From NCBI GenBank assembly GCA_001586195.1, contig CP014609.1:966001-1030000 (forward strand): a DNA stretch of 64,000 bases, written 5' to 3'. This DNA comes from Solibacillus silvestris (lineage in GTDB: Bacteria > Bacillota > Bacilli > Bacillales_A > Planococcaceae). Shown here piece after piece: positions 8,169 through 48,106 of this stretch. Each line of letters opens with the position of its first letter. Position 1 is the stretch's first letter. The notes beneath the pieces were generated by a model. That model searched no databases, was not told the DNA's origin, and was given only the letters and a program-made list of their open reading frames with translations. A program made the position numbers and the translations under genes.

Positions 8169-8227
8169 CGGGTATCCGAAACGGCCCGATAGAAGCTTAA
8201 ACAGAAAATTCTTATTAAGAAACGGAT

Positions 8228-8471
8228 TTTATAAAATTGATTGGAATGGAGGGCGAGTGTTCGTGCTGACGGTTTCACCTTTCGCACTGTGAAAACATTA
8301 GCTGAGGGCTATGCCTTTCGCTACAAGCAAGCTTCCTGCGGGAATAGCGTGACGCCTGAGACTAGGAACAAAAGCTAAGAACGCCACGTCCTGTGGCAAC
8401 GCTTTTGTGACCAACATCCTGTTGGCCTCACGCCCGCGGAAAGCGTCCCGGAATGGAAATCAATTTTTAAG
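8228..8471. repeat. Dispersed intergenic repeat with structured core (copy 1)
   Basis: This gene-free stretch is GC-richer than its flanks. Both ends carry AAATTGATT in inverted orientation next to GGAATGGA, and the right part reads GCCCGCGGAAAGCGTCCCGG. From memory, such ends are typical of intergenic repeats scattered through Bacillaceae genomes. Inside are hairpins, including a 57-nt core at 8369-8425 whose architecture recurs at 28045-28101. Left-arm CTGCGGG and CGTGA can also pair with right-arm CCCGCGG and TCACG. Confidence 0.65.
8369..8425 (+). other. 57-nt structured element, copy 1 (two tandem 5-bp hairpins)
   Basis: Outer stem CAAAAGC/GCTTTTG (8369-8375 with 8401-8407) encloses TAAGAAC and hairpin GCCAC-GTCCT-GTGGC. 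TGA and a second hairpin, CCAAC-ATCCT-GTTGG (8411-8425), follow. Copy 2 at 28045-28101 has the same lengths throughout with different stem sequences. The strand on which it acts, and whether it acts as RNA or DNA, are unknown. Confidence 0.65.
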
Positions 8472-8477
8472 CACAGC

Positions 8478-8513
8478 AAAAAGCCATTTTTCTCCCGGAG
8501 AAAAATGGCTTTT
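8478..8513 (-). terminator. Terminator of the VanZ-like/aldo-keto reductase operon
   Basis: A long stem of AAAGCCATTTTTCTCC with its complement starts at the stop of the leftward VanZ-like gene. The minus strand ends in a T run. Confidence 0.8.
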
Positions 8514-27956: not shown

Positions 27957-27989
27957 TCCGAAAAGTGAAATATCTTTAACTTCAGGATT

Positions 27990-28140
27990 GAAGTTAAGCC
28001 TCCGGTGGATGTCATGGATTCGAAAAGGAGTTCTAAAAAAGGAAGCCAGCTTAAAAGCGTCGCATCATGCGACAACAGCTGACTGACCCACATCCTGTGA
28101 GCCTCATAGCCCAGTCCGGACGCGATTACACCAAGGCATA
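27990..28140. repeat. Dispersed intergenic element, copy 2, in place of spmAB
   Basis: The 361-bp gap between the carboxypeptidase gene and rluB holds no gene. It contains the same structured core as the repeat at 8.4 kb and ends in AATTGATT. From memory, similar sequences recur in related genomes; that needs a search. Confidence 0.55.
28045..28101 (+). other. 57-nt structured element, copy 2
   Basis: GCCAGCT/AGCTGAC (one mismatch) encloses TAAAAGC and hairpin GTCGC-ATCAT-GCGAC. TGA and hairpin CCCAC-ATCCT-GTGAG (one mismatch) follow. All segment lengths equal those of copy 1 at 8369-8425, and stem bases differ in a compensating way. Confidence 0.65.
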
Positions 28141-28317
28141 ATTGATTAAGTTCTGAAAGTATGACATAATTTTTATTCGTTAAGGATTTATTTTCGCTCG
28201 TAATTGTGGATTGCAGCAATGATATTTAAAATTTAACAGAGCAGTAAACGAAAAGTGCAAAGGCGAATGCTGAAGAAGTATGCGTCTTTGCAGTTTATCA
28301 ATCAATGAGGTGAACTT

Positions 28318-46870: not shown

Positions 46871-48106
46871 TCAAGATATGTCTTGGAAAGAAGTTTTGTT
46901 TTTTAATAGTGCATAAATCCAATGTAAGAGTTTGTTTGCACAAGCTATTACAGCTACTCTAAATGGTTTTCCTTCTTCACGTTTTTTATCATAAAACGCC
47001 CGTAGTTTCTTATTACGAGGAAGGATTTCATCTGTAGTTTTCTGTTTTCGACAATCACGAATTGCACATTTAACAGCCATATACAAAGCTTGCCGTAGTC
47101 TGCTAGAGCCTCTTTTTGTTATTCGGTTGTAAGTGCCTTTGAATGTACCTGATTCAAAGATACTTGGATCAAGACCGGCAAATGCGACTAGTTTCTTAGG
47201 GTGATTAAACCTTTCAATTTCCCCAATTTCAGATATAATCGTGGCAGCGATTTTTTCTCCGATACCAGGAATAGATTGGATAATCTTCGATTCTTCAATA
47301 CTTTTGGCCAAAGCATCTATCTCATTTTCAAGTAGGGATAGGTGTTTTTTGTATTCAAAGATCATGTTAATATACATATCTAAACTTAGGGCAAGGCTAG
47401 AATATAAAGCCTGTTGAAATGGATTTTGAGCTGCTGCAGTCATTAGCTTTTCAGCCTGTTGATTTGCCCATTGTAGAGAACGAGAATTACAGAATTCTTT
47501 TATTTTAGTTGTTAATACTTCGTTATTGGCGCTCAATATATCTTCTGAAGTAGGATAAGTCTGTAGTATTTTTAAAGAAACATTCGAATATAAGTCGCCA
47601 AAAACATTACTATATTCAGGGAATACTTGATCTAAGACTGCCTGGAATTGTAGTTTAGTTTGTACAAACATGCCTGTAATATTATCGTGCTGTCTCGTAA
47701 GATGACGTAAGTTCGCAAGTTGGATGCCACGCTTTTTATAAGGCTCTAAATCCTCTTTATAATACAGCTCACAGAGATGATTGGCATCAACGATATCTGT
47801 TTTTACCTTTCGTAAACTAGAACTTTTCGTCTTATAAGAGATGAGTGGATTTACGATAATGATTAAATAACCTTTGTCTTCAAAATATTGAACAACTGGT
47901 GTGTGATAATGGCCTGTAGACTCCATAACTAGGGGAGGGCGCTCTCCTGAAATATCTTCTACTTCTTTAATAAAATCTAATAAACTAGCTAACCCATCAA
48001 GATCATGTTTTACTTTAAAGCTTTTCTTGTAGGGCTTCTTTCTTTCTAAATAAGCTTGAACCTGACTTTCACCTTTAGCTACATCCAGGCCAATGACTGG
48101 ATTCAT
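46871..48106 (-). CDS. IS110-family transposase (DEDD recombinase)
   Basis: A 411-residue protein with a RuvC-like N-terminal domain (Asp8 in VIGLDVAKG, Glu62 in VMESTGHY, Asp104 and Asp107 in VKTDIVDANHL) and a C-terminal Tnp_20 domain (SIPGIGEKIAATIISEIG; AFAGLDPSIFESG). The catalytic Ser lies in the region ITKRGSSRLRQALYMA. The reading frame is full length with intact acidic residues, so it may be active. Family members integrate using a bridge RNA from the element end. AGGAGGAATTAT stands before the ATG. Confidence 0.92.
   Translation of the reverse strand: MNPVIGLDVAKGESQVQAYLERKKPYKKSFKVKHDLDGLASLLDFIKEVEDISGERPPLVMESTGHYHTPVVQYFEDKGYLIIIVNPLISYKTKSSSLRKVKTDIVDANHLCELYYKEDLEPYKKRGIQLANLRHLTRQHDNITGMFVQTKLQFQAVLDQVFPEYSNVFGDLYSNVSLKILQTYPTSEDILSANNEVLTTKIKEFCNSRSLQWANQQAEKLMTAAAQNPFQQALYSSLALSLDMYINMIFEYKKHLSLLENEIDALAKSIEESKIIQSIPGIGEKIAATIISEIGEIERFNHPKKLVAFAGLDPSIFESGTFKGTYNRITKRGSSRLRQALYMAVKCAIRDCRKQKTTDEILPRNKKLRAFYDKKREEGKPFRVAVIACANKLLHWIYALLKNKTSFQDIS

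Follow-up and report, generated by a model that had tools for sequence, protein, structure and literature searches.

Bacillaceae-1 elements of Solibacillus silvestris as an optional structured module of dispersed intergenic repeats

A stretch of 64,000 nucleotides from Solibacillus silvestris (contig CP014609.1, positions 966,001 to 1,030,000), termed here the window, harbors two elements of 57 nt separated by 19.7 kb, whose stems differ in sequence. A preliminary description held that both share one layout without a named family, that pairing was kept in both while the loops stayed close to ATCCT, and that the structure had been selected, either as an RNA or as a DNA hairpin recognized by a protein. 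The question raised by this locus is therefore what the element belongs to, and on which nucleic acid selection has acted.

The search of the 64-kb window against the Rfam 15 covariance models settled the first part, since both elements matched RF01690, the Bacillaceae-1 RNA, with 79.1 and 64.2 bits against a gathering cut-off of 35; the two copies are members of this family, and the statement that no named family has this layout was refuted. Rfam types RF01690 as "Gene; sRNA", its hairpin loop consensus is RUCCU, and a 2010 paper reportedly lists the motif, while to our knowledge this widespread family has no known function. The window further contains an FMN riboswitch (RF00050, 37251-37424, + strand) and a cspA thermoregulator (RF01766, 59625-60004, + strand), both above the curated cut-off. 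A tRNA or tmRNA identity was rejected, as ARAGORN found neither in the window. The parts of the two cores are as follows.

8369-8425, + strand: Bacillaceae-1 core, copy 1 (RF01690 match 8359-8425, 79.1 bits; 17/17 pairs)
8369-8375/8401-8407, + strand: stem A of copy 1
8376-8382, + strand: linker TAAGAAC of copy 1
8383-8397, + strand: hairpin B of copy 1, loop 8388-8392
8398-8400, + strand: AAC of copy 1
8408-8410, + strand: TGA of copy 1
8411-8425, + strand: hairpin C of copy 1, loop 8416-8420
28045-28101, + strand: Bacillaceae-1 core, copy 2 (RF01690 match 28035-28101, 64.2 bits; 15/17 pairs)
28045-28051/28077-28083, + strand: stem A of copy 2, with one C·A
28059-28073, + strand: hairpin B of copy 2
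28087-28101, + strand: hairpin C of copy 2, with one C·A

Read from the sequence, the coordinates and the segment lengths (7-7-5/5/5-3-7-3-5/5/5) proved exact for both copies, which have the linkers TAANANC, AAC and TGA in common. The claim of kept pairing holds for copy 1, where all 17 pairs are Watson-Crick, and was overstated for copy 2, where 15 of 17 are paired and two C·A mismatches had been overlooked, one at the second pair of the outer stem GCCAGCT/AGCTGAC and another at the second pair of the last hairpin CCCAC/GTGAG; in the best + strand fold of copy 2 with DNA energies, the outer stem is absent. Likewise, the loop ATCCT occurs once per copy, and the other loops read GTCCT in copy 1 and ATCAT in copy 2, the latter a variant of the RUCCU loop; the wider loop consensus is RTCNT. 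When folded as single-stranded DNA, copy 1 surpassed 200 of 200 shuffles on both strands, and for copy 2, folds at least as good were obtained from 1 of 200 + strand shuffles and 2 of 200 - strand shuffles. The likeness of the two copies is well beyond chance, as judged from the RF01690 scores, the further copies in the genome and the shuffled folds.

A search for more than these two copies yielded 39 RF01690 matches in the genome of the window itself (G000), so that the finding of two copies alone, named in the preliminary description as a refutation, did not occur. All 16 Solibacillus genomes contain the family, with 3 (G012) to 107 (G011) copies each, and it was encountered in 202 of 261 genomes of the bacterial family and in 146 of 200 genomes drawn from the order, where all of those listed belong to that same bacterial family; the filters of these two scans were stricter, and no more than 18 or 24 candidates were scored in any genome, which makes their copy numbers minimum values. 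Among named genomes, a pattern scan detected at least 119 loci, and the 80 listed include Bacillus, Sporosarcina, Lysinibacillus, Halobacillus, Oceanobacillus, Peribacillus and others. A passage of the BSGatlas report gives eight Bacillaceae-1 structures in B. subtilis, obtained by Rfam scan (PMC8208703).

Selection on the structure, as proposed from two copies, was supported by the covariation among 53 chosen copies (49 distinct), with a score of 0.506 against 0.144 for shuffles. In this set, which consists mostly of top-scoring hits and is thus biased toward paired stems, 97.5% of 833 cells were paired, compared with a shuffled mean of 78.9% and with 29-38% in slid controls. Two-sided changes were found at 14 of the 17 pairs; double changes occupied 148 cells and one-sided changes 2 cells, both to G·U, which amounted to 2 of 812 standard pairs, and the number of further pair types showed no excess over shuffles (25 versus 25.9). 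Between subfamilies, the helices co-vary almost wholly through double Watson-Crick changes. An excess also appeared inside subfamilies, with 6 double changes at the finest setting, all Watson-Crick, where 2.4 were expected; 21 (20 Watson-Crick) against 6.4 at the next setting; 27 (25 Watson-Crick) against 9.5 at a coarser one; and 64 (63 paired) against 27.8 in coarse groups. This excess opposes a purely neutral decay of the copies, and it may reflect either leftover subfamily structure or some remaining constraint.

The extent of the conserved unit was obtained from 51 copies of other genomes (54 loci chosen among the 80 listed, 3 of which lacked a usable window), detected by a search pattern that fixed core bases 7-32 and left the borders free. 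Conservation spans positions -6 (AAGGAA) to +58 (CC), and outside these borders it is at most 0.3 bits in the range of positions printed. Outside rRNA operons, the conserved unit is accordingly a module of about 65 nt, comprising AAGGAA, three helices and CC, and it constitutes an optional part within several unrelated families of dispersed, hairpin-rich intergenic repeats, whose flanking portions are referred to as scaffolds. In the window, these units are as follows.

8363-8427, + strand: module copy 1, with TAGGAA before and CC after (borders as conserved in the 51 copies)
8237-8463, + strand: scaffold of type A, TTGATTGGAATGGAGGG ... GGAATGGAAATCAA, enclosing the module (aligned copies and consensus)
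28039-28103, + strand: module copy 2, with the borders AAGGAA and CC (sequence and border definition)
27981-28146, + strand: type S1 (B) scaffold around copy 2, which begins directly after TAAC and ends with GGCATAATTGAT (sequence and aligned S1 copies)

Type A, which holds window copy 1, accounts for 20 of the 39 copies of the genome, while window copy 2 is held by the S1 or B scaffold (GGCGGATGTCACAGATTTT ... AAATCTGGACGCAATTACGCC); types C and D occur in the same genome, and types E and F together with the S1 type B7 in genome G007. In other genera, the module is surrounded by an AAGCGGAAGCGCC-like repeat and further scaffolds. Five copies in the window's genome possess an identical core sequence and similar scaffolds, and are therefore recent. 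The type A scaffold (e.g., L001 and L010) is often found within a larger inverted repeat with an GAGGTTGGGACA-like start and an GGGTTATGTCC-like end, and near type A copies there is a strong A/T-rich hairpin resembling a terminator.

The optional nature of the module is evident from scaffolds that exist without it. The right arm of S1 has 106 matches in G007 with at most 3 mismatches, and among 100 listed arms, 28 have a core within 260 bp and 72 have none. An E scaffold lacking the module has, by eye, the sequence GGCTGAAT-CAAGTTA-AAGCCCC; where the module is present, it takes the place of about seven bases. The sole clean pair of loci at the module level comes from two genomes of another genus, where the orthologous loci L103 and L102 were judged by eye to carry a simple hairpin and the module inside, respectively; they differ by about the module alone, plus about 6 nt beside it, so that gene conversion or deletion may instead be the cause. 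Nesting and inversion were observed as well. At L258 a type F core is nested, by eye, within a type E core; of the 28 S1 arms with a core in G007, 23 have the same orientation as the core and 5 the opposite one; and the 20 copies labeled B7 were divided by eye into 11 and 8 by core orientation, with one mislabeled. L051 (G008) and L112 (G201) also contain two or three cores resembling Bacillaceae-1, arranged in tandem or nested.

Whole elements differ in presence between species at orthologous sites. At the first window site, the element is absent in the four aligned relatives G014, G006, G005 and G008 (locus L243), and the missing interval, counted by eye and with fuzzy ends, is as follows.

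8202-8491 (approximate), no strand: DNA without a counterpart at the orthologous site of the four aligned relatives

Continuous matches indicate its absence in G003, G004 and G015 too, while gaps of 281 bp in G009 and 343 bp in G010 imply that the site may be occupied there. In the grpE-dnaK interval, the element is present in the window's genome alone among six aligned genomes, with other extra DNA in G001, and TAAC is missing in the element-free relatives. The element at the second window site is old, being present in G009, G005 and G006 and degenerate in G014; no empty site was found there, as the G010 copy is internally deleted with both ends retained. At three G007 sites, the element is missing in relatives, with a possible remnant in G011 at one site, and begins directly after TAAC; of the 8 rows without the element, 5 contain TAAC, with one or more such rows at every site, and 3 do not. 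A TAAC start was likewise observed in 22 of the 26 type E copies (of 59) found by motif, a count that leans on a motif already demanding a similar start. Judged from these junctions, insertion of S1 elements apparently occurs 3' of (T)TAAC, and type E copies of G007, as well as L428, L431 and L434, seem to begin directly behind TAAC. The TAA of this TAAC doubles as the stop codon of the upstream gene at two of the three sites in G007, and TAAC-adjacent insertion may explain the frequent upstream stop codon about 89 nt before the core. No target-site duplications were visible at these junctions, which are fuzzy against diverged relatives.

Candidate mobilizing enzymes were sought in the 16 Solibacillus genomes, and no mobilizer of the elements was found among them. 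Y1_Tnp was detected in nine of them and was not found in the high-copy genomes G000, G001, G002 and G007, while the single Y1_Tnp of G011, the genome with 107 copies, is interrupted by a stop. Neither Bacillaceae-1 matches (0/18) nor S1 arms (0/20) were found at Y1 loci, and one of 20 such loci (L070) has a weak type A motif; mobilization by RAYT or Y1 enzymes is thus unsupported in the four high-copy genomes. A link to IS110 (PF02371), which is present in 14 of 16 genomes, was rejected with the core at 0 of 30 fetched loci and the type A motif at 2 of 30. TnpB, occurring in 6 of 16 genomes and in neither G000 nor G007, was likewise dismissed, as some scaffold motif lay at 4 of 29 loci (two of them S1 arms, none of them cores) at chance-like distances. 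The window itself contains an IS110-family transposase domain (PF02371) in a 430-aa frame at 47051-47287 on the - strand (genome 1013051-1013287).

The genomic context varies with the scaffold. Among scored copies, a co-directional gene precedes the element in 12/12 cases for type A and 15/16 for type F, after 8 of 20 type A and 3 of 19 type F copies had been dropped for an overlapping predicted frame; over both genomes, 21 of 138 copies were dropped because such a frame overlapped the core. Type E follows a co-directional gene in 33 of 55 scored copies; its copies are spread over all four gene arrangements, those of B7 over three. With the origin assumed at position 1, 69 of 99 copies in G007 point with replication (p = 0.0001), an effect derived from types E and F, with 9 of 20 for B7; in the window's genome 23 of 39 copies do so (p = 0.34). 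From origin to terminus, the successive fifths of G007 contain 18, 30, 33, 12 and 6 copies, which are scarce near the presumed terminus.

An association with rRNA operons is part of the general description of Bacillaceae-1 RNA. In the window's genome, one of the 39 copies is located between 23S and 5S, corresponding to one of four spacers examined; L054, the one fetched of the three matches in G012, is also located in a 23S-5S spacer, and one copy of Bacillus sp. FJAT-50079 lies directly upstream of 16S. By eye, both rRNA-spacer copies are Watson-Crick paired, and neither window copy is rRNA-linked. The copies in 23S-5S spacers and the 16S leader probably form a separate class, which may act in the rRNA transcript. 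According to the title of a 2022 paper in Gene, the Bacillaceae-1 motif is said to comprise two distinct classes, which might mean the rRNA class and the dispersed class; part of this split is, by that title, already in print. In the literature covered (titles, abstract beginnings and passages, with the 2022 paper by its title), Bacillaceae-1 was not found described as a mobile module. Table 2 of a 2008 survey places a single group of hairpin repeats within rRNA in B. subtilis, and likewise one in B. halodurans (PMC2267715); these groups may be Bacillaceae-1.

The choice between RNA and DNA was approached through the mispairs of decaying copies, since G·U on one strand corresponds to A·C on the opposite strand. 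The 39 copies of the window's genome, together with 99 from G007 that exceed the cut-off, gave 138, of which 18 were omitted for length and 120 aligned to the structure, with one loop base cut from the 68-nt type B7 cores. Their stem pairs comprised 1808 Watson-Crick, 63 G·U, 71 A·C and 98 others, 5 of the last arising from the rRNA-spacer copy, which was misaligned at helix C. G·U and A·C did not differ in these 120 copies (63 versus 71, p = 0.55), and hence neither strand is favored, whereas the acceptor and T stems of 18 distinct tRNAs from the same fetched DNA, taken as a control, had 20 G·U versus 2 A·C. Since A·C and G·U occur at similar frequency in decaying copies, the DNA hairpin left open by the preliminary description fits somewhat better than an RNA maintained copy by copy, which is no proof of a DNA role. 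Our reading is that selection acts on the helices at the founding of a new subfamily and that copies, once inserted, largely decay. That the dispersed copies act as DNA hairpins is plausible, with the chances about evenly balanced.

Overall, a structured module of non-autonomous mobile intergenic repeats, on which selection acted during the spread of founders, perhaps in the form of single-stranded DNA, is the explanation regarded with moderate confidence. The repeats would be non-autonomous mobile elements, and the module would serve as their structural recognition part, read by a protein as a hairpin, probably of extruded or single-stranded DNA. Those founders whose helices are intact would multiply, and the inserted copies would afterwards mostly decay. 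If the target rule of S1 holds, it may point to a HUH-like, single-strand mode. A bolder version, in which Bacillaceae-1 is itself a mobile three-helix DNA module of about 65 nt that enters repeats and rRNA spacers across Bacillales without the Y1, TnpB or IS110 enzymes tested, is put forward as a tentative idea at most; independent movement of the module is possible, yet doubtful.

Several other explanations deserve consideration. Were each copy transcribed, the folded RNA could serve as an sRNA or, within 3' UTRs and rRNA precursors, as a signal for processing or stability; the Rfam type, the copies in the 23S-5S spacers of G000 and G012 and upstream of 16S in FJAT-50079, and the above-chance double changes within fine subfamilies agree with such a true RNA, and the 12/12 and 15/16 positions of types A and F after co-directional genes could mean a transcript role. 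However, the copies show no G·U preference where tRNAs do, they number 3-107 within one genus, their unrelated flanks oppose one conserved transcript, and every one of the four gene arrangements is represented among type E copies and three of them among B7 copies, so that a true RNA is considered unlikely. It is conceivable, with a low probability in our estimate, that the module is immobile itself and that inner hairpins are exchanged among scaffolds by gene conversion or template switching. Scaffolds with and without the module do have common arms on both sides, the few bases beside the module differ together with it at L102/L103, and the 106 S1 arm matches in G007 are possible donors; against such an exchange, the same module resides in scaffolds without common arms, in both S1 orientations, nested in another core and in rRNA spacers.

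REP- or REPIN-like elements moved by a RAYT-type (REP-associated tyrosine) transposase would account for high-copy intergenic palindromes with covarying stems, and S1 apparently inserts next to TAAC, much as in the HUH/Y1 mode. This origin is nevertheless regarded as quite improbable, for no Y1_Tnp was found in the four high-copy genomes, among them the window's genome with its recent copies, the only Y1_Tnp of G011 has a stop, and none of 18 Y1 loci has a Bacillaceae-1 match. The least credible of the candidates, with hardly any weight assigned to it, is an RNA decoy for CsrA on the reverse strand. CsrA recognizes AGGA in a hairpin loop, and the reverse complement of copy 1 displays AGGA in both loops, which read ACAGGACGT and ACAGGATGT; the fourth base of RTCNT, however, departs from the group consensus in 0.28-0.29 of copies, and for type E the decoy was rejected, as both consensus loops are RTCGT and provide no GGA on the reverse strand.

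If the dispersed copies belong to mobile repeats instead of being RNA genes, the sRNA annotations in many Bacillales genomes would be misleading, and strong covariation by itself would be no proof of a functional RNA. Moreover, loci with and without the module, together with the apparent TAAC rule of S1, make the mechanism directly testable in soil bacteria that are harmless.

Compared with known systems, the elements share sequence, structure and hairpin order with Rfam Bacillaceae-1, including the rRNA-linked copies; Rfam treats the family as an sRNA gene, whereas most copies of the window's genome are parts of dispersed repeats. REP, BIME and REPIN sequences with RAYT are alike in their high-copy palindromes and possible single-strand mode, while Bacillaceae-1 differs by its larger three-helix core and the lack of linkage to Y1. 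PATE-like elements are non-autonomous elements of the IS200/IS605 type, with which S1 agrees in its apparent start after TAAC, a hairpin near each end and no duplication seen; here, by contrast, no Y1 gene was found in the four high-copy genomes, and the Bacillaceae-1 module itself displays no target of this sort. As stated in a passage of PMC3733652, bcr1-like repeats and bacterial MITEs are short, non-coding, structured and dispersed, and are often located beside coding sequences; the present repeats resemble them in these features, but no target-site duplication or classical terminal inverted repeats were demonstrated here, and the 57-nt core recurs within unrelated repeat families.
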